Of a stretch of 64,000 nt of DNA, positions 12,502 through 27,300 are shown in pieces; positions within the stretch are counted from its first letter, which is position 1; each line of letters begins with the position of its first letter. The DNA is from Pseudomonadota bacterium (GTDB lineage: Bacteria > Myxococcota_A > Bradymonadia > Bradymonadales > GCA-2716585). The notes below the pieces were generated by a model. It saw only the letters and a program-made list of their open reading frames with translations. It made no database searches and was not told the origin of the DNA. The DNA is taken from positions 1-64,000 of the forward strand of contig SYOX01000381.1 of the NCBI GenBank assembly GCA_005804885.1, written 5' to 3'. Made by a program: the position numbers and the translations under genes.

Positions 12502-12763
12502 TGGACCTCCTCGGGTGCGGGGCGTGCGAGCGCGCCGGAGACCCTTCTTTGGGGATGGCGGCGAGCGCAAGCAAGCGCAAGACAAGCATAAGATATGCTG
12601 GTCCGCTCTTTGCACTCTTCAAGGCAAGGAGCTTTTTATCCAAGGGTTGAAGCGGCAATGGCTACTCATCTTCAACCTCGACACCATCATGGTGACAACA
12701 TTCGTTGTCAAAAACATGGCAAAGGGTCGCAAAAATTGTCACCGGATCCAGGAGCAGGAAGTC
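12502..12763. promoter_or_regulatory. AT-richer divergent regulatory region with inverted repeats
   Basis: This gap is visibly richer in A and T than the rest of the window and separates divergent genes. It holds a perfect inverted repeat TGACAAC-ATTC-GTTGTCA at 12693-12710, with a further TTGTCACC at 12736-12743 that mirrors GGTGACAA at 12691-12698. A second short palindrome, GCATA-AGA-TATGC, is at 12586-12598. The repeated TGACAA half-sites look like an operator for the giant gene downstream. No clear -35/-10 or -24/-12 promoter could be placed. Confidence 0.5.
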
Positions 12764-15700
12764 ATGAGGACACAACAGGTCATCAATCCCCGCGAGACTA
12801 GAAACTCACTTGGGGGAGAGTTCGCCGAGTGGATGCGGCGATCTCCCGCGTTGGGGTTGGGTTTGGCCACGATCTTGATGGCCGCAGGGCCGGCCCAGGC
12901 GGCCCCGCCGGTGGCGCAGACCCAGAACGTGTCGACGAACGAGAACCAGACGGTCAACATCACGTTGACGGGCTCGGACGCGGATGGGGACTCGCTGCGC
13001 TTCGGCATCACCGACCAGCCGGACCGCGGCTCGCTGTCGTTCAACTTCATCTCGGGGTGCACCAAGCTCCAGGCCTTCAACTACAACCCCAACGCTGACA
13101 ACGACGACGGCAGCTGCCGCTACACGTCGTGCCGCCAGATCAAGCTGGCAGATCCCAACGCCACCACGGGCAACTACACCATCGATCCGGACGGCACTGG
13201 CTCCTTCGGCGCGCTGACGGTCCACTGCGACATGACGACGGACGGCGGTGGCTACACCATGCTCAACGTCGACAGCGGCATCAACACCTTCCGCAGCACG
13301 GACCACAACTCGTGCAGGGCGATGGGCCTCAACATGGTGGTGCCGAGGACGAAGGAGCACTGGCGCTCGCTGCTCAACCGCTACGGCACCTCGTACTTCA
13401 ACACCATCCCCGGCATCTCCAAGCCCTCCAGCGGCGGCAACTACACCGGCTTCGCCATGCGCTCCGGCTCGGTGCCCGACTGGCGGGCCCTCGACGGCGG
13501 CTCGTGGTTCATTCGCGACTCGCCCTACAGCGAGCCCAACGGCGACTACGAGGCCAACTGCTGGCTGTTGATGTACAACTTCGACGTCAACAACATCCAG
13601 TTCAACGACGGCACCTGCTCCTACTCCACGTCGCGCTACATCTGCTCCACCAACGACAAGGCCGGAGTGGAGAACCTCGGCGGAGTCGCCTCCTGCGCGA
13701 CGATCAAGCTCAATGACCCCAACGCCGCCAGCGGCAACTACACCCTCACCACCTCGACCGGCGCCCGGGTCACGGCCTTCTGCGACATGACGACGGACGG
13801 CGGCGGCTACACGATGGTGCCTGTGGACAGCGGCATCCGCACCTCCCGCAGCACGGACAACGACTCGTGCAAGGCGATGGGGCTCAACATGGTGGTGCCG
13901 AGGACGAAGGAGCACTGGCGCTCGCTGCTCAACCGCTTCGGCACCTCGTACTTCAACACCATCCCCGGCATCTCCAAGCCCGGCGGCGGCGGCAACTACA
14001 CCGGCTTCGCCATGCGCTCCGGCTCGGTGCCCGACTGGCGGGCCCTCGACGGCGGCTCGTGGTTCATGCGCGACTCGCCCTACAGCGAGCCCAACGGCGA
14101 CTACGACGGCAACTGCTGGCTGTTGATGTACAACTTCGACGTCAACAACATCCAGTTCAACGACGGCGGCTGCTCCTACTCCACCACCCGCTACATCTGC
14201 TCCACCAACGACAAGGACGGGCCGCTGGTCCGGGACACGGGGCTGCGCACCTGCCAGGAGATCCTCAGGGCCAACCCCAGCGCCCCCTCCGGCAACTACA
14301 CCCTCCGCCCGAAGCAGGGCGTCACCGTGTCGGCCTACTGCGACATGAGCACCGACGGCGGCGGCTACACGGCGGTGGCGATCGACGACGGCATCCGCAC
14401 CTTCCGCAGCACCGACAACGACTCCTGCAAGGCCCTCGGTCTGGACATGGTCATCCCCCGCACCAAGGCCCACTTCAACAGCCTGCTGAGCCGCTTCGGC
14501 ACGTCCTACTTCGGCACCGTCCCGGGCATCTCCAAGCCCACCAACGGCGGGAACTACACCAACTTCACCATGAACTCCAAGGCGGGTATCATCGACTGGC
14601 GCGCCACCGACAACGGCCAATGGTGGCTGCGCGACACCCCCTACAGCGAGCCCAACGGCGACTACACCGCCAACTGCTGGCTGTCGATGTACCACTTTGA
14701 CATCAACGATCTGCGCTACAACGACGGCAACTGCTCCTACTCCACCACCCGCTACATCTGCTCCTCCAACGACAAGAAGGGCTTTGAGCAGATCAGCGCA
14801 CAGCGCCGAACCTGCGCGACGATCAAGCAGGGTGACCCCAACGCCGTCAGCGGCAACTACACCATCACCACCTCGACCGGCGCCCAGGTCACGGCCTTCT
14901 GCGACATGACGACGGACGGCGGCGGCTACACGATGGTGCCTGTGGACAGCGGCATCAACACCTTCCGCAGCACGGACAACGACTCGTGCAAGGCGATGGG
15001 TCTCAACATGGTGGTGCCTCGGACCAAGGAGCACTGGCGCTCGATGCTCAACCGCTTCGGCCAGTCCTACTTCAACACCATCCCCGGCATCTCCAAGCCC
15101 GGCGGCGGCGGCAACTACACCAGCTTCGCCATGCGCTCCGGCTCGGTGCCCGACTGGCGGGCCCTCGACGGCGGCTCGTGGTTCATGCGCGACACCCCCT
15201 ACAGCGAGCCCAACGGCGACTACGACGGCAACTGCTGGCTGCTGCAGTACGACTGGAACGTGGACAACATCCGCTTCAACGACGGCGGCTGCTCCTACTC
15301 CACGTCGCGCTACATCTGCTCCACCAACGACAAGGACGGGCCCCTGCGTCCCCCGGTCAGCTTCCGCTCCTGCGCCGAGATCAAGCGCGCCACCCCCAAC
15401 GCCGCCACCGGCAACTACACCATCGTGACCGAGACCGGCCGCGCGGTGACGGCCTACTGCGACATGACGACGGACGGCGGCGGCTACACGATGGTGCCGG
15501 TGGACAGCGGCATTCGCACCTCCCGCGTCAGCGACATGGACTCCTGCCGTGAGATGGGCCTCCAGATGATCGTCCCGCGCACCAGGGCGCACTGGGTGTC
15601 GATGCTGGGCCGCTTCGGCCAGTCCTACTTCAACACCATCCCCGGCATCTCCAAGCCCTTCGACGGCGGCAACTACACCGGCTTCGCCATGAAGTCCGGC

Positions 15701-18700
15701 TCGGTGCCCGACTGGCGGGCCATCGACGGCGGCTCGTGGTTCATGCGCAACTCGCCCTACAGCGAGCCCAACGGCGACTACAGCCAGAACTGCTGGCTGC
15801 TTCAGTACCACTGGGACGTGGACAACATCCAGTACAACGACGGCGGCTGCTCCTACTCCACCGCCCGGTACCTCTGCTCCACCAACGACAAGGACGGCGA
15901 CATCACGCTGCCGAAGTCGTGCATGGCCATCAAGCTGCTCAACCCCAACGCCGCCAGCGGCAACTACGACATCAACCCCGGCCGCGGCCGCCTCACCGTC
16001 CACTGCGACATGACCACCGACGGCGGTGGTTACACCATGCTCAACATCGACAGCGGCATCACCACCTCCCGCATCACCGACCGCGACACCTGCAAGGACC
16101 TCGGCATGCAGATGGTGGTGCCGAGGACGAAGGAGCACTGGCGCTCGCTGCTGAGCCGCTACGGCACCTCCTACTTCAACACCATCCCCGCCATCGCCAA
16201 GCCCCACAGCGGCGGCAACTACACCGGCTTCGCGATGAAGTTCGGCTCGGTGCCTGACTGGCAGGCCATCGACCTCGGCTCGTGGTTCATGCGCGACTCG
16301 CCCTTCGGCGAGCCCAACGGTGATTACACCGAGAACTGCTGGCTGCTTCAGTACAACTGGGATGTGAACAACATCCAGTTCAACGACGCCAACTGCGCCT
16401 ACTCCACGTCGCGCTACATCTGCTCCACCAACGACAAGGATCCGGACCCCAACTTCCAGCGCTTCCAGAACCAGACCCGCCCGCCGGCGAGGACCTCGAT
16501 CTCCGGCACCTACACGCCGGCCAATGGCTACTTTGGCACCGACTTCTTCGACTTCCGCGTCACCGATCCCGGCGGTGAGACCTCCACCGCCCGCGTCAAC
16601 ATCACGGTCATCTCCGTCAACGTGGCCCCCGTGGCCCAGAACCAGTCCGTCTCCGTCGCCGAGGACGGCACCCTCAACATCACCCTCGTCGCCACCGATG
16701 GCGACGGCGACAGCCTCACCTACACCCTCCTGACCAACCCCGGCCAGGGCACCCTGACGGGCACGGCGCCCAACCTCACCTACCGCCCGGCGGCCAACTT
16801 CAACGGCTCGGATTCGCTTACGTTCCGGGTCAACGACGGCACGGTCAACTCCAACACCGCCACCGTCTCCATCACCGTCACCCCCGTCAACGACACCCCC
16901 GTCGCCAACGCCCAGAGCGTGACCACGAACGAGGACACCCCCGTCACCATCACGCTGACCGGCTCGGACATCGACGGCAACACGCTGACCTACTCGCTCG
17001 TGTCCAACCCCACCCGTGGCGCGATCTCCTGCACGGGCGCGGTCTGCACCTACACGCCGACGGCCAACCTCAACGGCGCGGATTCGTTCATCTTCCGGGT
17101 CAACGACGGCACCGTCTTCTCCGCCAACGCCACCGTCTCCGTCACCGTCAACGCCGTCAACGACACCCCCGTCGCCAACAACGGCACGGCGGTCGTCAAC
17201 GAGGACAGCTCCGTCGGCATCGTCCTGACCGGCTCGGACGTCGACGGCAACACGCTGACCTACACGGTCGTGACCAACCCGACGCGCGGCACCCTGAGCG
17301 GCACCGTGCCCAACCTGACCTACACGCCGACGGCCAACCTCAACGGCGCGGATTCGTTCACCTTCCGGGTCAACGACGGCACGGTCAACTCCGCCAACGC
17401 CACCGTCTCCATCACCATCAACCCGGTCAACGACGTCCCCGTCGCCAACGTCCAGAGCGTGACCACGAACGAGGACACCTCCCGCAGCATCACGCTGACC
17501 GGCTCGGACATCGACGGCAACACGCTGACCTACTCGCTCGTGTCCAACCCGTCTCAAGGCGCCCTGTCCTGCACGGGCCCCGCCTGCACCTACACCCCGA
17601 ATCTCAACTACAACGGCGCGGATTCGTTCATCTTCCGGGTCCACGACGGCACCGTCTTCTCCGCCAACGCCACCGTCTCCATCACCGTCACCTCCGTCAA
17701 TGACGCCCCCGTGGCCAACGCCGCCAACGTCTCGACCAACGAGGACACCTCCGTGGCGATCGTCCTGACCGCCACCGACGCCGACGGCAACGCCCTGACC
17801 TTCACCGTGACCACGCAACCTCTGCGCGGCACCCTGACGGGCACGGCGCCCAACCTCGTCTACCGACCCAACACCAACTTCAACGGCGCCGACTCGCTCA
17901 GCTTCAAGGTCAACGACGGCACCATCGACTCGGCCATCGTGAACGTCTCGATCACCGTCAACCCCGTCAACGACGCCCCGGTCGCCGACACCCGTGCCCT
18001 CCAGACCAACGAGGATACGCCGCTGACCCTGACCCTGACCGGCTCGGACGTCGACACTGGCACCACGCTGACCTTCGCCACCCTGACCACCCCCAGCAAC
18101 GGCACCCTGACCTGCACGGGCGCCGCCTGCACCTACCGCCCCGCGGCCAACTTCAACGGCGACGACTCCTTCCTCTTCAGGGTCAACGACGGCGCGCTGA
18201 ACTCGGCGCCCGCCGCCATCACCATCACCGTCAACGCCGTCAACGACCAGCCCGTCGCGGCCACCCAGAACGTCACGACCAACGAGGACACGGCTCGCAA
18301 CATCGTCCTGACCGGCACGGACGTCGACGGCAACCCTCTGACCTTCGAGGTCATGAGCAACCCGACGCGCGGCGCCCTCTCGGGCACGGCGCCCAACCTG
18401 ACCTACACGCCGACGGCCAACGCCAACGGCGCGGATTCGTTCGCCTTCCGGGTCAACGACGGCACGGTCAACTCCACCATCGCCGTGGTCAACATCACCA
18501 TCACGCCCGTCAACGACGCCCCGGTCGCCCAGCCTCGCAACCTGTCCACCGACGAGAACATCGCCGTCAGCCTCACGCTGACCGCCACGGACGTCGACGG
18601 CGACGCGCTGACCTTCTCGGTCACCCGCGATCCCGCCAACGGGCGGCTCTCGGGCGTCGCGCCCAACCTGACCTACACGCCCAACAACGGCTTCCTGGGC

Positions 18701-20461
18701 GTCGACACCTTCAACTTCCGCGCCTTTGACGGGGGGCTCGACAACGAGGCGACGGTCACCGTCACCGTCCGCAACCCCGGTCTGGAGCCGCCGGCCCTCA
18801 CCATCGACACCGCGAGCCTCTGGTTCGGCGCCGGGCAGACCCTGCAGGCCCGCATGACCGATGGCCGCTGCCAGACCCCCCCCACCGTCGCCGTCACCCC
18901 CACGAGCATTACGCTGGCCGTGACCAACCTCCAGAACGGCGGCTGGCAGCTCACCTCGCCCGTCCTGCCCCAGGGCACCTACAACGCCTCGATCACCGTC
19001 ACCAGCCGGTGCAGTGACAGGACCACGGTCGCCACGCGGGTCTTCGGCGTCGACACCACGCGCCCGGACATCGTCTACGGCGAGCTCCCCCAGAACGGCG
19101 TCAACCCCAACGACATCACCACCTGGCCCATCAAGTCCCTGCTTGAGGAGCTTCCCATCAACAGCCTGCTGCGCGACCCCCTCAGCGGCGTCGCCTCGGC
19201 CTCGACCACGCTCTTCGCCCTGGATCGCAACAACCAGTCCTTTGCGCTCCACAGCGGCAACTTCACCACGCGCACCGGCGCGCCCCCGACGGGCCTGACG
19301 GTCACGACCGCCTCGCTCTGCTCCAACGTCCAGCACTGCAACAACGGCCGCCTGCGCCTTGAGCCCCTCGAAGGCGACCGCTTCATGCTCAGGATCCAGC
19401 TCACCGACGTGGCCGGCAACGTCCGCGTGTCCGACTTCCTCTTCCGCGTTGCGCGCTTGCGGCCCAGCATCGTGGCCTGGAGGGAGGCGCTCGTCGCCCT
19501 GACGAGCAACAACACCCAGGCCAACAACGCGCGCCTGGCCGCCATCGCCAAGCTCGACATCGCGCTGGAGGGCTTCGACAACAACTACATCGGCAACATG
19601 GTCCTCACCCTGGAGGACGCCGAGGCGCTCAGCCGCGTCGCGCGCGCCTTCGACACCCGAGTCGACACCCGCCCGCAGGCCCTGCTGGTGGCCAACCTCA
19701 CCCACCGCTTCTTCGTCGAGGAGCTGAAGATCGTCGAGAACGAGTTTGGCCTGCTCGGACCCGTGCAGACCGCAGACACCCACCTCGACCTGGCGCGCGG
19801 CCACATCGACATCGAGGCCAGCGGCGACGCGCTGCTCTCGTGCGCCAACGCCTACTTCTACATGGAGATGCCGCGCATGCCGGAGATCGTCGAGAACTTC
19901 GGGACCACGCGCTCGCTCATCAACCAGATCATCGGCGAGATGGACACCTACATCACCCACAACCCCGTCCTGGCCGGCCGCACCCAGGTCGCCGTGGCCC
20001 GCACCGAGTTGAGCATCGTGCGCGACTTCATCGTCCGGGTTGTCACCAACGGCGACACCTCCCTGAGCGACCTTGAGCACCTGCGCCTCCTGCTCGGGCT
20101 GGCCAATGTCGCCCAGCAGATCAAGGTCGTCGAGGAGGCCGGCGTCTGGGTGCGCAACTGGCAGTGGGGCCTGACGCAGATCGTCCACCTCTACGCCGAC
20201 CGCGGTCTGCGCAACACGCGCTCCCGCCTTGGCCTCTTCAGCCCCATGCTGACCGAGGGTGAGAATCAGCTGGCCCGCGCCGTGGTGCACCGCGGTCGCC
20301 AGGAGGCGGACGACTACATGACGCTGCTGATCAACTCGCGTTGCGTCATGATCGGGCTCTACAATCTGGTCTTCGAGCCCAACGAGGCCATTCCCACGGC
20401 CTGCTGCGCTGACATGCTCCGCTACAGAGGCATCGACAGCCGCGTTCCCATCTGCCAGTAG
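12764..20461 (+). CDS. Giant exported protein: six fibrinogen-like domains nested in tandem-95 repeats
   Basis: This 2565-residue protein has a long signal peptide with likely cleavage after AQA near residue 47. A tandem-95 Ig-like repeat starts at about residue 48 (VSTNENQTVNITLTGSDADG) but is interrupted near residue 93. The insert carries a GCTKLQAFNYNPNADNDDGS module, then six fibrinogen-C-like domains of about 186 residues starting near residues 123, 311, 496, 683, 869 and 1052. Each has CDMTTDGGGYT, NGDYxxNCW and CSYSTxRYICS. The broken repeat resumes at GTYTPANGYFGTDFFDFRV (about residue 1247). Eight full 90-residue repeats follow (about 1286-2006), then a C-terminal module of about 560 residues shared with the next gene. 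It is probably a cell-surface adhesin or carbohydrate binder. The ATG has AGGAGC upstream. Confidence 0.88.
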   Translation: MRTQQVINPRETRNSLGGEFAEWMRRSPALGLGLATILMAAGPAQAAPPVAQTQNVSTNENQTVNITLTGSDADGDSLRFGITDQPDRGSLSFNFISGCTKLQAFNYNPNADNDDGSCRYTSCRQIKLADPNATTGNYTIDPDGTGSFGALTVHCDMTTDGGGYTMLNVDSGINTFRSTDHNSCRAMGLNMVVPRTKEHWRSLLNRYGTSYFNTIPGISKPSSGGNYTGFAMRSGSVPDWRALDGGSWFIRDSPYSEPNGDYEANCWLLMYNFDVNNIQFNDGTCSYSTSRYICSTNDKAGVENLGGVASCATIKLNDPNAASGNYTLTTSTGARVTAFCDMTTDGGGYTMVPVDSGIRTSRSTDNDSCKAMGLNMVVPRTKEHWRSLLNRFGTSYFNTIPGISKPGGGGNYTGFAMRSGSVPDWRALDGGSWFMRDSPYSEPNGDYDGNCWLLMYNFDVNNIQFNDGGCSYSTTRYICSTNDKDGPLVRDTGLRTCQEILRANPSAPSGNYTLRPKQGVTVSAYCDMSTDGGGYTAVAIDDGIRTFRSTDNDSCKALGLDMVIPRTKAHFNSLLSRFGTSYFGTVPGISKPTNGGNYTNFTMNSKAGIIDWRATDNGQWWLRDTPYSEPNGDYTANCWLSMYHFDINDLRYNDGNCSYSTTRYICSSNDKKGFEQISAQRRTCATIKQGDPNAVSGNYTITTSTGAQVTAFCDMTTDGGGYTMVPVDSGINTFRSTDNDSCKAMGLNMVVPRTKEHWRSMLNRFGQSYFNTIPGISKPGGGGNYTSFAMRSGSVPDWRALDGGSWFMRDTPYSEPNGDYDGNCWLLQYDWNVDNIRFNDGGCSYSTSRYICSTNDKDGPLRPPVSFRSCAEIKRATPNAATGNYTIVTETGRAVTAYCDMTTDGGGYTMVPVDSGIRTSRVSDMDSCREMGLQMIVPRTRAHWVSMLGRFGQSYFNTIPGISKPFDGGNYTGFAMKSGSVPDWRAIDGGSWFMRNSPYSEPNGDYSQNCWLLQYHWDVDNIQYNDGGCSYSTARYLCSTNDKDGDITLPKSCMAIKLLNPNAASGNYDINPGRGRLTVHCDMTTDGGGYTMLNIDSGITTSRITDRDTCKDLGMQMVVPRTKEHWRSLLSRYGTSYFNTIPAIAKPHSGGNYTGFAMKFGSVPDWQAIDLGSWFMRDSPFGEPNGDYTENCWLLQYNWDVNNIQFNDANCAYSTSRYICSTNDKDPDPNFQRFQNQTRPPARTSISGTYTPANGYFGTDFFDFRVTDPGGETSTARVNITVISVNVAPVAQNQSVSVAEDGTLNITLVATDGDGDSLTYTLLTNPGQGTLTGTAPNLTYRPAANFNGSDSLTFRVNDGTVNSNTATVSITVTPVNDTPVANAQSVTTNEDTPVTITLTGSDIDGNTLTYSLVSNPTRGAISCTGAVCTYTPTANLNGADSFIFRVNDGTVFSANATVSVTVNAVNDTPVANNGTAVVNEDSSVGIVLTGSDVDGNTLTYTVVTNPTRGTLSGTVPNLTYTPTANLNGADSFTFRVNDGTVNSANATVSITINPVNDVPVANVQSVTTNEDTSRSITLTGSDIDGNTLTYSLVSNPSQGALSCTGPACTYTPNLNYNGADSFIFRVHDGTVFSANATVSITVTSVNDAPVANAANVSTNEDTSVAIVLTATDADGNALTFTVTTQPLRGTLTGTAPNLVYRPNTNFNGADSLSFKVNDGTIDSAIVNVSITVNPVNDAPVADTRALQTNEDTPLTLTLTGSDVDTGTTLTFATLTTPSNGTLTCTGAACTYRPAANFNGDDSFLFRVNDGALNSAPAAITITVNAVNDQPVAATQNVTTNEDTARNIVLTGTDVDGNPLTFEVMSNPTRGALSGTAPNLTYTPTANANGADSFAFRVNDGTVNSTIAVVNITITPVNDAPVAQPRNLSTDENIAVSLTLTATDVDGDALTFSVTRDPANGRLSGVAPNLTYTPNNGFLGVDTFNFRAFDGGLDNEATVTVTVRNPGLEPPALTIDTASLWFGAGQTLQARMTDGRCQTPPTVAVTPTSITLAVTNLQNGGWQLTSPVLPQGTYNASITVTSRCSDRTTVATRVFGVDTTRPDIVYGELPQNGVNPNDITTWPIKSLLEELPINSLLRDPLSGVASASTTLFALDRNNQSFALHSGNFTTRTGAPPTGLTVTTASLCSNVQHCNNGRLRLEPLEGDRFMLRIQLTDVAGNVRVSDFLFRVARLRPSIVAWREALVALTSNNTQANNARLAAIAKLDIALEGFDNNYIGNMVLTLEDAEALSRVARAFDTRVDTRPQALLVANLTHRFFVEELKIVENEFGLLGPVQTADTHLDLARGHIDIEASGDALLSCANAYFYMEMPRMPEIVENFGTTRSLINQIIGEMDTYITHNPVLAGRTQVAVARTELSIVRDFIVRVVTNGDTSLSDLEHLRLLLGLANVAQQIKVVEEAGVWVRNWQWGLTQIVHLYADRGLRNTRSRLGLFSPMLTEGENQLARAVVHRGRQEADDYMTLLINSRCVMIGLYNLVFEPNEAIPTACCADMLRYRGIDSRVPICQ
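13131..16440 (+). repeat. Array of six fibrinogen-like domain repeats (about 560 bp each)
   Basis: The six units start near 13131, 13696, 14250, 14811, 15370 and 15919. Long blocks are identical or nearly so at DNA level, for example ATGGTGGTGCCGAGGACGAA in units 1, 2 and 6, and TTCAACACCATCCCCGGCAT in units 1, 2, 4 and 5. This points to recent duplication or gene conversion. Confidence 0.85.
16620..18780 (+). repeat. Eight 270-bp tandem-95 repeat units
   Basis: The period is about 270 bp (90 residues), with recurring blocks such as GGCGCGGATTCGTTC and TTCCGGGTCAACGACGGCAC. Alternate units carry a CTGxxC loop, a likely disulfide, where the others have GTAPN. Units 2, 4 and 6 have the CTGxxC form. 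Confidence 0.85.
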
Positions 20462-20616
20462 CTCCGGAGCGAGAGCCCTTGCGCGGACTCAGCAAACCGG
20501 CCATCATGTCTCCAACAGGCAACATACAGCCGCAGGCGACGTCATCTCCTTATCAAGAGTTGACGCCGCCTGCGCGCCGTACCTACTTTCCACCCTCCTA
20601 TTCATCAGGAGCTCAT

Positions 20617-23600
20617 ATGATGCGCTCGCTAACCTCTCTCTGTGGCCTCGTCGCCCTGCTCGCCCTTCTGGCTTGCGAAGCACCCTCGGCCACGGATGAA
20701 CCCGGCCTGCGGCGCGTCAACCAGCCCGGACAGCCCAACAACCCGCCCACCGTCAACTTCCAGGAGATCTCCACGGCGCTCAACACCCCCGTGGCCTTCA
20801 GGCTGACCGGCGCAGATCCCGACGGCGACGCCTTGATCTTCACGGTGCTCCGGCAGCCCTCCAACGGGCGAATCACGGGCACCTCCCCGAACCTGACCTA
20901 CACCCCCAACAACGGCTTCAACGGCATCGACTCGATCGACTTCATCGCCAGCGACGGCCTGCTCAACTCCAGCGCCTCCACGATCAACTTCCTCGTCGGC
21001 AACCTCCCCCCGACCGGCTTCAACCAGCGGCTCGTGGTCGACGTCAACACCCCCCGCGCCTTCACCCTTGAGGGCTCCGACCCCAACGGATCGGCGCTGA
21101 CCTTCGCCGTCGTCACCCCTCCGCGCAACGGGCGACTCACGGGCACGGCCCCGAACCTGACCTACACCCCCAACAACAACTACACCGGCCCGGACACCTT
21201 CACCTTCACCGTCAACGACGGCGCCCTGACCTCCCCAGCGGCCATTGTCTCCATCGGCGTCGGCGGGGTCTTCAACCAGGCCCCGCTGGCCCTCTTCCAG
21301 TCCGTCTCCACCGAGCCTGGCACCCCGGCGGCCTTCACCCTCCAGGGCATCGATCCCGACGGCGACACGCTGACCTTCACGGTGGTCCGGCAGCCCTCCA
21401 ACGGGCGAATCACGGGCACCCCCCCGAACCTGACCTACACCCCCAACAACGGCTTCATCGGCCAGGACTCGATCGACTTCACCGCCAGCGACGGGCTCCT
21501 CAGCTCGGAGGTGTCCTCGGTCATCTTCATCGTCGGCGATCTCCCCCCCCAGGCCTTTGACTTGGATCTGTCCACGCGCGCCAACACCCCGCTCACCGTC
21601 ACGCTGGGCGGCCTCGACCCCAACGGCTCTGCGCTGACCTTCCAAGTCCTCACCCAGCCAGAGAACGGCGACCTCTCGGGCGTCGCCCCCAACCTGACCT
21701 ACACCCCCGACAACGGCTTCAACGGCCTGGACACCTTCACCTACACCGTCAACGACGGCCGGTCGACCTCGCCCCCAGCCAAGGTCAACATTACCATCGG
21801 CGAGACGGGCTTCGCGCCGACCGCCAACCCCCAGGCCCTCACCATCGACGTCGGCGCCTCGACCCCGATCACCCTGACCGGCTCCGATCCCGAGGAGCAG
21901 GCGCTGACCTTCGAAGTCCTCACGCAGCCCACCGGCGGACAGCTCACGGGCACGGCCCCGAACCTGACCTACACCCCCAACCAGGGCTTCGAGGGCCTTG
22001 ATGAGTTCACCTTCCGGGTCTTTGACGGCGTGTTGCGCTCTCCGAGCGCCACCGTCACGATCACGGTCGGCACCCTGAACCTCACGCCGGTCGCCTTCCC
22101 CCAGGCCCTGACGACGGCGCCCGGCACCCCGCTGGCCTTCAGGCTCGGCGGCACCGACCCCGAGGGCGCACCCCTGACCTTCGCCGTGGTCGCCGCGCCC
22201 CAGCGCGGCCAGCTCTCGGGCACGGCCCCGAACCTGACCTACACCCCCAACCAGGGCTTCGAGGGCGAGGATCGCCTCATCTTCACCGTCAACGACGGCC
22301 AGCTCACCTCAGCACGCGCCACCATCACCTTCGCCGTCGGGATCTTCAACACGCCCCCCGTCGCGCTGCCCCAGAGCATCTCGACCGAGGTGAACACGCC
22401 CGTCGCGATCACCCTGGGCGCCTCCGACGAGGACGGCGACGCGCTGACCTTCGAAGTCTTCTCCAACCCCACCGGCGGCATCCTCTCGGGCGTGGCCCCG
22501 AACCTGACCTACACCCCCAACAACGGCTTCGTCGGCGCGGACATCTTCACCTTCAGAGTGAGCGACGGTGAGGATTTTTCTCCGTTCGTATCCGTACTTG
22601 TGCGAGTGGGCGTCGATAACCTGCTCCCCGAGGCGCTCTCCCAGGCGCTGATCACCAACAGGAACACCCCGGTCGCCATCACGCTGTCGGGCAGCGACCC
22701 CGAGGGCTCACCTCTGACCTTCGCCGTGGTCGGCGCGCCCCAGAGCGGCCAGCTTGCGGGCACGGCCCCAAACCTGACCTACACCCCCAACCAGGGCTTC
22801 GAGGGCAACGACGTCTTCACCTTCCGGGTCAACGACGGCCTGGACAACTCCGCCCCCGCCTCCGTCCTGATCACGGTGGGAAGGCTCAACCAGGCGCCCT
22901 TCGCCAACGATCAAGAGCTGGCCACCCCCCAGGACACCCCCCTGGCCTTGACCCTCGACGGGGCCGACCCCGACGGCGGCCCGATCACGATCCAGATCAT
23001 CGATCGGCCCACGCGGGGCGCGCTCTCGGGCACGGCCCCGAACCTGGTCTACACCCCCAACAACGGCTTCAACGGCATCGACTCCTTCACCTGGCAGGCC
23101 TCCGACGGCCAGGCGCTCTCGGGGATCGCCACGGTCGAGATCACCGTCGGCGTGCCCAACGAGCTCCCCGTGGCCTTGTCCCGCGACGTCGTCACCAACC
23201 AGGGCACCCCCGTCTCGATCGTGCTGACGGGCCAGGACCCCGAGGGCGCGCTGCTGACCTTCATCGTGACCCGCTCTCCGGACAACGGTCGGCTGGCGGG
23301 CGCTGCCCCGAACCTGGTCTACACCCCCAACGGCGGCTTCACCGGCGTCGACACCTTTGACTTTGTCGTTGATGACGGCGAGGACGAGTCCCCCACGGCC
23401 ACCATCTTCATCTTCATCGGCGTCAACCCGCCTCCCCAGGCCCAGCTCCAGCAGCTCAGGCTCAACGAGGACGCCTCCATTGCCATCACCCTGCGCGCCA
23501 CGGACCCCGACGGCGGGCCGCTCTCCTTCCAGATCGTCGACCAGCCCGACAGCGGCCAGCTCACCGGCCAGCCGCCCAACCTCGTCTATCGCCCCAATCA

Positions 23601-26600
23601 GGACTTCTTCGGGATTGACTCCTTCGACTTCAAGGCCAACGACGGCGTCAACGACTCCAACACGGCCTCGGTCATCCTCATCGTCGCGGGCATCAACGAC
23701 CCCCCCAAGGCCGACGACCTGACCCTGACCACCAACGAGGAGGCCCCCGCCACCTTCTCGCTGCCGGCCATCGACCCCGACGGCGACCTGCTCCTCTTCG
23801 AAGTCCTTGACGCGCCGCTCAACGGCCAGCTCATCGGCGTTCCGCCCAACCTCACCTACGTCCCCAATCCGAACTTTGCCGGCACGGACGACCTGACCTG
23901 GCGCGCCTCCGACGGCCAGGAGGACTCCGAGGTGGCGACCGTCACCTTCAACGTCGTCAACGGCAACGACCCCCCCACGGCCACCGCTCAGGACGTCCGC
24001 ACGGCGGAGGACACGCCGCTGGCCATCACGCTGCGCGGCACCGACCTCGACGGCGACAACCTCGGCTTCATCGTCTTGACGCAGCCCACGCGGGGCGCGC
24101 TCTCGGGCACGGCCCCGAACCTGACCTACACCCCCAACCGCAACACCAGCGGCGCCGACAGCTTCACCTTCCGCGCCAACGACGGGCGCGCGCTCTCGGC
24201 GACCGCCACCATCCGGATCACCGTCGACGCCGTCAACGACCCACCGGAGGCCTTCGACGGCCTCGCCAGGACCCCCGCCAACGCCCCCGTCGCCGTCACC
24301 TTGCGCGGCCAGGACGAGGAGGGATCTGCCCTGACCTTCGCCATCGCCCGCGCGCCTGCCAGCGGTCGCATCACCGGCACGGCGCCCAACGTCACCTACA
24401 CGCCCAACAACGGCTTCGAGGGCGACGACACCTTCACCTTCACCGTCAACGACGGCGCCCTGACCTCCCCTCCGGCCACGATCTTCGTGCGCGTCGATCC
24501 CCCCAACAACCCCAACTCCGCCCCCGTCGCCCAGAACCTGACCTTCAACGGGCAGGAGGACACCCCGCTGCCCTTTACGCTCATCGCCCAGGACGCCGAC
24601 GACGATCTGCTGCTCTTCGAACTCCTCACCCTCCCCAACCGGGGCACGGTCGAGGGCGCCCCGCCAGCCCTCGTCTACACGCCGCCGGCCGAGTTCGCCG
24701 GCCAGGTCACGCTGACGTGGCGCGCCAACGACGGCCTGGCGACCTCCAACACCGCCACCGTCACCCTGAACATCGCCCCTGCGAACGACCCGCCCTCGGT
24801 CTTTGATCAGCTCATCAACACCAACGAGCGCCTGCCTGTCACCTTCGCCCTCCTCGGCGAGGACCCCGAAGGCGACGCGCTCACCTTCGAAATCCTCACC
24901 CAACCTCGCAAGGGCACCCTGAGCGGCCAGATCCCGAACCTGACCTACACCCCCAACAGCGACTCCACCGGCGAGGACACCCTCACCTTCCGGGCCTCGG
25001 ACGGCCGGGTCAACTCCGCGACGGGCACCATCCGCTTCTTCATCGCGCCCATCAACGACCCGCCCACCGCCGACAACCTCGCCGTCCGAACGGACGAGGA
25101 CACCCCCGTCAGCTTCACCCTGACCGCCGACGACCCCGAAACCCCCCAGGCGCTCGTCTTCGTCCTGGCCTCGAACCCGACCCTCGGGCGTCTCTCGGGC
25201 GCGGTCCCGAACCTGACCTACACCCCCAACCTCAACGCCAGCGGCACCGACCGCTTCACCTTCCTCGTCAACGACGGCCAGTTCAACTCCAACATCGCCA
25301 CCGTCAACATCACCATCACCGGCATCAACGACCCGCCGATCGCGCGCGACCTCGAGGCCACCACCGAGGTCAACACCCCAGTCTCCCTCACGCTGGTCTT
25401 CTCCGACGAGGACGATCAGAACCTCACCGTCCGGATCACCGACGCCCCCGACCACGGCGCCCTCACCGGCACCGCGCCCAATCTCACCTACACGCCCGAG
25501 GAAGGCTTCGGCGGCGAGGACACCTTCGTCTTCTCGGTCAGCGACGGGCGCGCCACGGCCACCGGCAATGTGCGGATCTTCGTCAACAACCAGGATCTGC
25601 CGCCGCCCGTCGTCACCCTCCAGACCCCGATCCGATGGTTTGACGATCAGGCGCGACTTGTCGCCACCGTCACCGACTCCACCTGCAACAGCACGCCGAC
25701 CGCCTCCGCGAGCCCGGACAACATCCAGGTGGGGGTCGCCGAGGAGGCCGAGGGCCGCTGGCGCGTCCAGTCGCAGCTCCTGCCCGAGGGCCTTCACGCC
25801 ATCAACCTCACCGTCACGAGCCGGTGCTCTGGGCGCCGCGGCAACGCCAGCGCCGTCTTCGGCATCGACGCCACGCCCCCCACCCTCAACGCCCCCTCCA
25901 TCTCACAAGATGGCGTCGTTGTTGGCGATCCGGCCACCTGGCCCGCCTTCTCCCCCGACGCCCGGATCAACCTCTCGGCCCTGCTGCGCGACCCCCTGAG
26001 CGGGCTCGCCCGCGTGAACGCCGCCCTCGTCAACCTGGACGACCAGCGCTCCACGCCCACCCTCGACCTCGACCTCGACGCCCGCCTCGGCCAGCCCCCC
26101 GCCGGCCCCCGATCCCAGACCCTCTCCCTGTGCGCCAACCCCGCCCTCTGCGACGACGGAAGCCTCGATCTGGCCCGGATCGGCGCCCAGGACGGCGACC
26201 TCTTCGCGCTCCGGATCCAGGTCCGCGACGTGGCCGGCAACCTCCTGACCCAGGAGCTCCTCCTGCGCGTCGGCCTGCTGCGCCCCGCCATCGTCGCCTG
26301 GCGGCAGGCCCTGGCCGCCCTCTCCTCCGACATCCCCGCCGCCGATGCCCTCATCGACGGCGCCCTCATCAAGCTCGACCTCGCCCTCCAGGGCGTCGAC
26401 CGCGACCAGCTCGGCAACACCCTGCTCGCCCTCGAAGACGCCTACGGCTTGAGCGCCGACGCCCGCTTCCTCGACTCCGACCTGGCCGACACCGACCCGC
26501 TCGCGCTTGAGATCGTCGCCCTCGGCCACGCCCTCTTCGAAGCCACCCTCGGCGATCTGCGCCGCGACCTCGGCCCACGCCCCGAGTTCAACCCCGCCGG

Positions 26601-27300
26601 CGTCGCCCTCGATCTGGCCCGCGCCCAGATGGAGCTCGAACTCCCCGGCGACGCCCTGCTCGCCCTGGCCAACGCCTTCTTCTGGATCGAGCGCGGGCAG
26701 CGCCAGCCCCGCGCCGCCTCCTTCGCCGACGCGCTGGGCCTCCTGGACCGCCTCATCGGCGACACCGGCGACTACATCGGCCTCAACCCGCCCCTGACGG
26801 GCCGCACCGGGCTCATCGCGGTCAGAGCCGATCTCATCGCCGCCCGCGCCGACCTCGGCGCCATCTCCGCGCGAGGCCCCGTCGCCCTGGACGACGCCGC
26901 CCACCTCCAGCTGGCGATGACGCTGGCCGACGCCGCCCGCGACCTCAAGGCCCTCGAAGAGCAAGCCATCTGGGTCCGCGGCCACATCCTCACGCTGGCC
27001 TTGATCGAGATCATCGTCCAAGGGCACAACTTCGAGCGCTTCGGCAACCTCATCGGCGTCGATCACCCCGTCGTCCTCCTCGGAATCGGGCAGATCGATG
27101 CCGCCGTCACGCTGGCCGAAGGCGAGCTTGTTGAAGATCTCTTCGAGACCGCCATCTTCAGCAGCCAGTGCCTCCTGATCGCCCTGGAGTCCATCTTCGA
27201 CCCCCGCGGGCCGGCCCCTCCCCTGACCTGCTGCGACGACCTGCTGGTCGCCGAGGACCTCGACAGAGACGTCGTTGTCCCGAGGGCCTGCACGCCCTGA
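20617..27300 (+). CDS. Giant lipoprotein of 18 tandem-95 repeats with shared C-terminal module
   Basis: This 2227-residue protein starts MMRSLTSLCGLVALLALLAC, a lipoprotein signal with lipobox LLAC at residue 20. Eighteen repeats of about 90 residues follow (residues 40 to about 1660), each with the tandem-95 pattern DPDGDxLTFxV, GxLxGTAPNLTYTPN, FxVNDG and a closing strand. The last part (about 1662-2227) is homologous to the C-terminal module of the preceding giant. Shared marks include TSRCS, LLRDPLSG, LRIQxxDVAGN, LRPxIVAWRxAL, GDALLxxANAxF and a terminal CC pair. It is probably an outer-membrane-anchored surface stalk. GGAG lies 5 bp before the first ATG and 8 bp before a second ATG at 20620. 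It may share a transcript with the upstream giant (155-bp gap). Confidence 0.88.
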   Translation: MMRSLTSLCGLVALLALLACEAPSATDEPGLRRVNQPGQPNNPPTVNFQEISTALNTPVAFRLTGADPDGDALIFTVLRQPSNGRITGTSPNLTYTPNNGFNGIDSIDFIASDGLLNSSASTINFLVGNLPPTGFNQRLVVDVNTPRAFTLEGSDPNGSALTFAVVTPPRNGRLTGTAPNLTYTPNNNYTGPDTFTFTVNDGALTSPAAIVSIGVGGVFNQAPLALFQSVSTEPGTPAAFTLQGIDPDGDTLTFTVVRQPSNGRITGTPPNLTYTPNNGFIGQDSIDFTASDGLLSSEVSSVIFIVGDLPPQAFDLDLSTRANTPLTVTLGGLDPNGSALTFQVLTQPENGDLSGVAPNLTYTPDNGFNGLDTFTYTVNDGRSTSPPAKVNITIGETGFAPTANPQALTIDVGASTPITLTGSDPEEQALTFEVLTQPTGGQLTGTAPNLTYTPNQGFEGLDEFTFRVFDGVLRSPSATVTITVGTLNLTPVAFPQALTTAPGTPLAFRLGGTDPEGAPLTFAVVAAPQRGQLSGTAPNLTYTPNQGFEGEDRLIFTVNDGQLTSARATITFAVGIFNTPPVALPQSISTEVNTPVAITLGASDEDGDALTFEVFSNPTGGILSGVAPNLTYTPNNGFVGADIFTFRVSDGEDFSPFVSVLVRVGVDNLLPEALSQALITNRNTPVAITLSGSDPEGSPLTFAVVGAPQSGQLAGTAPNLTYTPNQGFEGNDVFTFRVNDGLDNSAPASVLITVGRLNQAPFANDQELATPQDTPLALTLDGADPDGGPITIQIIDRPTRGALSGTAPNLVYTPNNGFNGIDSFTWQASDGQALSGIATVEITVGVPNELPVALSRDVVTNQGTPVSIVLTGQDPEGALLTFIVTRSPDNGRLAGAAPNLVYTPNGGFTGVDTFDFVVDDGEDESPTATIFIFIGVNPPPQAQLQQLRLNEDASIAITLRATDPDGGPLSFQIVDQPDSGQLTGQPPNLVYRPNQDFFGIDSFDFKANDGVNDSNTASVILIVAGINDPPKADDLTLTTNEEAPATFSLPAIDPDGDLLLFEVLDAPLNGQLIGVPPNLTYVPNPNFAGTDDLTWRASDGQEDSEVATVTFNVVNGNDPPTATAQDVRTAEDTPLAITLRGTDLDGDNLGFIVLTQPTRGALSGTAPNLTYTPNRNTSGADSFTFRANDGRALSATATIRITVDAVNDPPEAFDGLARTPANAPVAVTLRGQDEEGSALTFAIARAPASGRITGTAPNVTYTPNNGFEGDDTFTFTVNDGALTSPPATIFVRVDPPNNPNSAPVAQNLTFNGQEDTPLPFTLIAQDADDDLLLFELLTLPNRGTVEGAPPALVYTPPAEFAGQVTLTWRANDGLATSNTATVTLNIAPANDPPSVFDQLINTNERLPVTFALLGEDPEGDALTFEILTQPRKGTLSGQIPNLTYTPNSDSTGEDTLTFRASDGRVNSATGTIRFFIAPINDPPTADNLAVRTDEDTPVSFTLTADDPETPQALVFVLASNPTLGRLSGAVPNLTYTPNLNASGTDRFTFLVNDGQFNSNIATVNITITGINDPPIARDLEATTEVNTPVSLTLVFSDEDDQNLTVRITDAPDHGALTGTAPNLTYTPEEGFGGEDTFVFSVSDGRATATGNVRIFVNNQDLPPPVVTLQTPIRWFDDQARLVATVTDSTCNSTPTASASPDNIQVGVAEEAEGRWRVQSQLLPEGLHAINLTVTSRCSGRRGNASAVFGIDATPPTLNAPSISQDGVVVGDPATWPAFSPDARINLSALLRDPLSGLARVNAALVNLDDQRSTPTLDLDLDARLGQPPAGPRSQTLSLCANPALCDDGSLDLARIGAQDGDLFALRIQVRDVAGNLLTQELLLRVGLLRPAIVAWRQALAALSSDIPAADALIDGALIKLDLALQGVDRDQLGNTLLALEDAYGLSADARFLDSDLADTDPLALEIVALGHALFEATLGDLRRDLGPRPEFNPAGVALDLARAQMELELPGDALLALANAFFWIERGQRQPRAASFADALGLLDRLIGDTGDYIGLNPPLTGRTGLIAVRADLIAARADLGAISARGPVALDDAAHLQLAMTLADAARDLKALEEQAIWVRGHILTLALIEIIVQGHNFERFGNLIGVDHPVVLLGIGQIDAAVTLAEGELVEDLFETAIFSSQCLLIALESIFDPRGPAPPLTCCDDLLVAEDLDRDVVVPRACTP
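20740..25600 (+). repeat. Eighteen 270-bp tandem-95 repeat units
   Basis: The period is close to 270 bp. A strongly conserved core, AACCTGACCTACACCCCCAA, recurs in most units, whereas flanking parts vary more. The array occupies most of the giant lipoprotein gene. Confidence 0.85.

Follow-up and report, generated by a model that had tools for sequence, protein, structure and literature searches.

A tandem array of chimeric lectin-like domains nested within the first tandem-95 repeat of a giant secreted protein from Myxococcota

Results

The window, a 64,000-nucleotide stretch of DNA (contig SYOX01000381.1 of assembly GCA_005804885.1, order Bradymonadales), contains on its forward strand an uninterrupted open frame of 2648 codons (12515-20461), which encodes a giant secreted protein (12764-20461). 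Translation likely starts at ATG 12764, which is preceded by a GGAG/GGAAG stretch, or at ATG 12833. The Sec-type signal peptide MRRSPALGLGLATILMAAGPAQA (12833-12901), as read from the sequence, has no lipobox. It is followed by the N-terminal half (46 residues) of a tandem-95 repeat, a cysteine-bounded motif, six lectin-like domains, a linker, the C-terminal half of the same repeat, a stalk of eight intact tandem-95 repeats with GTAPN-type or CTGxxC loops (16622-18781), and a conserved C-terminal region of about 550 residues (18800-20458), which is the probable anchor. All of these features lie on the forward strand. The NCBIfam tandem-95 model NF012211 scores the protein at 474.8 bits against a curated cut-off of 90. 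No RTX repeat family was found among the Pfam or NCBIfam matches of the protein, and with a Sec-type signal peptide at its start it does not classify as an RTX adhesin.

The interruption of the first repeat was assessed with an HMM of the tandem-95 repeat, derived from 40 intact copies in the window and a relative; the split repeat was left out. Searched against the whole protein, the model matched residues 131-176 over HMM positions 1-46 (i-Evalue 1.4e-16) and residues 1330-1369 over positions 45-89 (i-Evalue 2.2e-10), so that an Ig-like repeat is cut within its fold with both complementary halves in place. The N-terminal half (12902-13042) holds strands A-D and the C-terminal half (16505-16621, HMM positions ~52-89) strands E-G; every core strand is present once, and none is doubled or lost. 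Joined in a script, the two halves score 90.3 bits, compared with 54.2 and 35.2 bits separately and 100-118 bits for the intact sister repeats. The 1153-aa gap between them holds the six domains and the cysteine-bounded motif. The break falls after "RGSLS" and before "GTYTP", at the point where sister repeats carry GTAPN or CTGxxC. When the intact repeats were aligned to the uncut protein, all 40 spanned both flanks, opening the gap unaided, in four of five aligner settings, the exception being the fast setting (--retree 2). The interruption of repeat 1, with complementary halves, is thus real at the sequence level.

These results bear out an earlier sequence-only reading of this DNA, which had the first repeat break off after RGSLS in the hairpin loop, resume about 1150 residues later and enclose a six-domain array. 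The interval it gave (12980-16560) misses both ends of the split repeat: the N-terminal half starts at 12902 and the C-terminal half ends at about 16621.

Across all loci fetched, which do not form a census, split tandem-95 repeats were confined to this protein and a long-loop case of 25 residues in genome G144. This genome (locus L210, contig C229; residues 492-600, among others) has a different class of tandem-95 repeat, whose D-E loops reach ~25 residues. The D-E loop is therefore naturally variable in length and may be a general insertion point.

The array comprises six domains of about 175-187 aa (13127-13663, 13691-14221, 14249-14782, 14810-15340, 15368-15898 and 15917-16444), as had been proposed, which are 57-87% identical to one another. 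The dN/dS between copies is 0.6-0.9, a value that is uninterpretable with copies so few and GC-rich. Most other bacteria with the full lectin-like unit have a single copy, which lies in a shorter protein, C-terminally or close to the C-terminal end. The cysteine-bounded motif GCTKLQAFNYNPNADNDDGSC (GCT...YNP...DDGSC, 13055-13117), which is absent from the sequence-only reading, lies in the gap before the six domains and has no Pfam match. It may serve as a Cys-braced neck. A return linker (16445-16504), with a short helix predicted at residues 1312-1320, connects the array to the C-terminal half.

The domains had been read as fibrinogen-like, which holds for about one-quarter of each. The NCBIfam model GGGWT_bact (NF040941) matches six stretches with 283.1 bits against a curated cut-off of 30, and the Fibrinogen_C profile (PF00147), which describes a domain of ~220 residues, matches each unit only at profile positions ~11-47 of 221. 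A whole fibrinogen domain per unit was consequently rejected: the match is confined to the N-terminal ~45 residues and is followed by ~125 residues with a C-type-lectin-like fold. Domain 2 was modelled with AlphaFold using 31 relatives as alignment (pLDDT 94.2), and the top rows of the structure comparison were mostly C-type lectin domains (CTLDs), the rest matching residues 1-42 alone. Residues ~14-174 follow the CTLD fold, with Z scores of 7-8.2 over 115-132 residues and a best Z of 8.2 (3.2 A over 124 aa), and residues 1-42 superpose on intelectin/ficolin at 0.8-1.3 A, with 48-52% identity in some rows. A profile search gave the same division, with an intelectin-type lectin at positions 1-48 (2.9e-9) and surfactant protein A at positions 48-142 (0.0018). 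The Pfam C-type lectin model reported no match at E<=10, HMMER filters being known to drop weak matches. Since structural comparison and sequence profile agree, each inserted unit is, on the model and the profiles, a fusion in which an N-terminal motif of fibrinogen/intelectin type precedes a C-type-lectin-like module. No solved structure with such a fusion was found among the structural matches listed.

In C-type lectins, the EPN and ND motifs form the core of the classical Ca2+/sugar site. Across 32 sequences, down to ~27-30% identity, E133, P134 and D158 are invariant, N135 is present in 31 and N157 in 29. A further Glu shortly before the next Cys, a canonical Ca2+ ligand of mannose-binding CTLDs, is not conserved in these sequences. 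The lack of conservation of this fifth ligand leaves room for an array that is correctly nested yet structural or protein-binding, the units being C-type-lectin-like without binding sugar, as is the case for many CTLDs, and a Z of 7-8 speaks for fold rather than function. Against this stand the near-invariance of EPN and ND at such low identity and the other lectin-type heads borne by sister paralogues, and we give the non-sugar reading the smaller share of probability, though not a negligible one. The units are probable candidates for sugar-binding lectins, as suggested by conserved residues and modelled fold.

The arrangement recurs in a second genome, G004 (record CALBXO01), from another genus of the same family as the window genome, with both junctions alike. 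One contig (C147) ends in "...NPGNGSVSCNFAGGCTNAAAYNYNKDADTDN", that is, the N-terminal half followed by the GCT...NYNP...DDGSC motif (C147 end; locus L040, 1-60). The other (C952) starts inside a lectin-like domain, spans seven such domains in all, continues with "...KVCRYTPRQDFYGTDTFRYRVTD", which is the C-terminal half, and then carries further repeats, the C-terminal region and a homologue of the next gene of the window. Relative to the window, the two contig ends lie about seven codons apart; no overlap between them was found, nor were any shared upstream genes. The two contigs probably represent one gene, judging from these positions, with at least seven inserted domains. The window and G004 proteins share only ~48% identity over ~2500 aa. 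G004 also has a single lectin-like unit in a different secreted protein, towards its start (L041, contig C552, residues 129-304 of a 547-aa frame).

A misjoined repeat-rich locus, with a lectin array spliced into a tandem-95 gene during assembly, would produce the same layout, and both assemblies are fragmented: the window genome has 428 contigs and is 83.6% complete and 6.6% contaminated, and the G004 gene breaks between contigs at this very place. Such an artefact is nevertheless highly improbable, given that both junctions were found independently in the second genome, that the frame of 2648 codons is single and unbroken, and that the copies are no more than 57-87% identical to one another.

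Cysteines at model positions 46 and 51 bear on whether the two halves meet. Among intact repeats with both positions, seven have both cysteines, 66 have neither and none has a single one. In the split repeat of G004, C46 ends the N-terminal half and C51 starts the C-terminal half, placing one Cys on either side of the insert, and in the window both are missing. The G004 pair fits a disulfide across the neck and argues that the halves meet, a single case by sequence that is supporting rather than decisive.

An AlphaFold model of uncut residues 148-1347 (1200 aa), with sister repeats as alignment rows, contains the strands directly on either side of the cut. The pLDDT lies at 88-94 over the initial 30 residues and at 91-94 over the final 20, and is ~50 in the array, the flank confidence leaning on the sister-repeat rows. 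Because strands A and G fall outside the model and the alignment rows carry the signal of intact repeats, this confidence is read as supportive only of closure. Structure comparison with this model returned only meaningless matches (Z 2.0-2.3).

Tandem-repeat genes recombine readily, and the two halves could be a recombination scar, in which case they would stem from different events and fold apart or be disordered, and the array would be a linear N-terminal head flanked by half-repeats. The occurrence of the nested arrangement in two genomes only, in one of them broken between two contigs, is in line with a scar, as is the lower score of the C-terminal half (26.5-35 bits) relative to the N-terminal half. 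A scar is hard to reconcile, however, with halves that complement each other to within a few residues and persist in two genera at such low overall identity, with a Cys pair that G004 retains on the two sides of the insert and the window protein has lost on both, and with flanks modelled at high confidence, and we therefore consider it unlikely. Sequence and model together strongly suggest that the two halves of repeat 1 close one sandwich.

Immediately downstream lies a second giant tandem-95 protein (20479-27300, forward strand), which is probably a lipoprotein (LLALLAC). It carries about 18 repeats, which are intact, the first included, and it has no lectin insert. It shares its C-terminal region with the split-repeat protein, and the gene pair is conserved in G004 (C952). 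The ~550-aa C-terminal region occurs in many giant proteins of this genome family (G000: C146, C184, C219; G002: C248, C402, C492, C541, C587, C273; G003: C86; G004: C111, C459, C832) and elsewhere in the phylum sample only distantly. Apart from a weak Big_13 match at its start, it has no counterpart in Pfam. The heads of these paralogues differ and include legume-lectin domains with thrombospondin type 3 repeats, laminin-G/ConA-like domains and Ig repeats. As the C-terminal region recurs under differing heads, including that of the lipoprotein neighbour, the sequences point to a family of surface proteins that share one base and bear interchangeable heads, often of lectin type. One frame of 4347 aa in G002 (L083, contig C587) has tandem-95 repeats at a strict period of ~309 residues with ~220 residues of other sequence between them, an alternating rather than nested layout.

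Discussion

The linkers of the nested array are short, with ~29 residues between strand D and the first domain and ~27 between the final Cys of domain 6 and strand E. A straight six-domain arm would far exceed their reach, and the ends of the array must therefore stay close, as in a closed cluster or loop. The N and C termini of C-type lectin domains are adjacent, which makes a bouquet feasible. The suggestion that the array projects as a side arm from a stalk is for this reason unlikely, as both of its ends return to one neck. Nor does the split repeat sit part-way along a shaft: it comes first after the signal peptide and so would lie at the tip, provided that the C-terminal region is the anchor. 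A closed cluster located at the N-terminal tip is thus the expected shape of the array, a geometry derived from linker lengths and repeat order.

In the mechanism that we propose, repeat 1 at the N-terminal tip is cut in its D-E hairpin loop by the cysteine-bounded motif and the six lectin-like domains, after which the chain re-enters and finishes the sequence of repeat 1, which it would close in space. The stalk would consist of the eight intact repeats, with the C-terminal region as the probable anchor, although the anchoring role is a guess. With one loop for entry and exit, six sites would be held as a closed tip cluster, which would permit avid binding of polysaccharide, probably of the mannose/glucose/GlcNAc type.

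Overall, the protein is probably a secreted, surface-displayed multivalent lectin that follows the split-domain principle, with its lectin array nested in the tip repeat. Less securely, it may represent a kind of adhesin tip not described before, in which six to seven chimeric fibrinogen/C-type-lectin domains make up a closed loop with both ends on one Ig-like repeat and, in the relative, a disulfide across the neck. Such a lectin ring or bouquet could grow or shrink by tandem duplication while leaving the stalk undisturbed.

At this locus, two animal-type lectin motifs are joined in a bacterial protein, which belongs to a family of giant proteins in which one C-terminal region carries interchangeable lectin-type heads. 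Half-repeats of this kind offer a sequence-level handle for locating adhesin heads. A literature search for tandem-95 plus fibrinogen found nothing.

Several known systems share parts of this design. Within the tandem-95 proteins (NCBIfam NF012211; Pfam Big_9, Cadherin_4/5), to which the intact repeats and both halves belong, ordinary members have uninterrupted repeats; their D-E loop varies in length, as in G144, and a comparable insert was absent from the loci fetched. Proteins with the GGGWT_bact motif YCDxxxxGGGW (NF040941) are described by a model of 46 residues, which in the window protein accounts for no more than the opening part of a larger, chimeric lectin-like unit. With animal intelectins and ficolins the unit shares residues 1-42 but lacks the rest of the fibrinogen domain, and with animal C-type lectins it shares the CTLD fold over residues ~14-174, including EPN and ND.

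The closest parallel is found in split-domain RTX adhesins, in which the chain leaves an Ig-like domain mid-fold, forms a projecting ligand-binding domain and then returns to finish the Ig-like fold (PMC12077191, PMC10865825). AhLap of Aeromonas hydrophila (PMC12077191) and FrhA of Vibrio cholerae (PMC10865825) belong to this group, as does MpIBP according to its citation in the AhLap and FrhA papers (PMC12077191, PMC10865825). As in these adhesins, an Ig-like repeat of the window protein is cut mid-fold, takes up an insert and is then completed, here at the level of the protein sequence. Unlike the single domain that split domains of RTX adhesins have been described as projecting, the insert in the window and G004 proteins is a whole array in one loop, consisting of six or seven tandem copies that are candidate ligand binders. 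The host repeat also differs, being of the tandem-95 type, from Myxococcota, and placed N-terminally after a Sec signal in a protein with no RTX repeats among its matches. That the split layout occurs in an unrelated non-RTX protein suggests that the D-E loop is a general docking site for the binding modules of bacterial Ig-like stalks. The split-domain principle is already published, and the window protein is a non-RTX myxobacterial variant of it that carries an array; what sets it apart is that one loop holds six or seven copies in an array, that the host is a tandem-95 repeat and that the lectin unit is chimeric.
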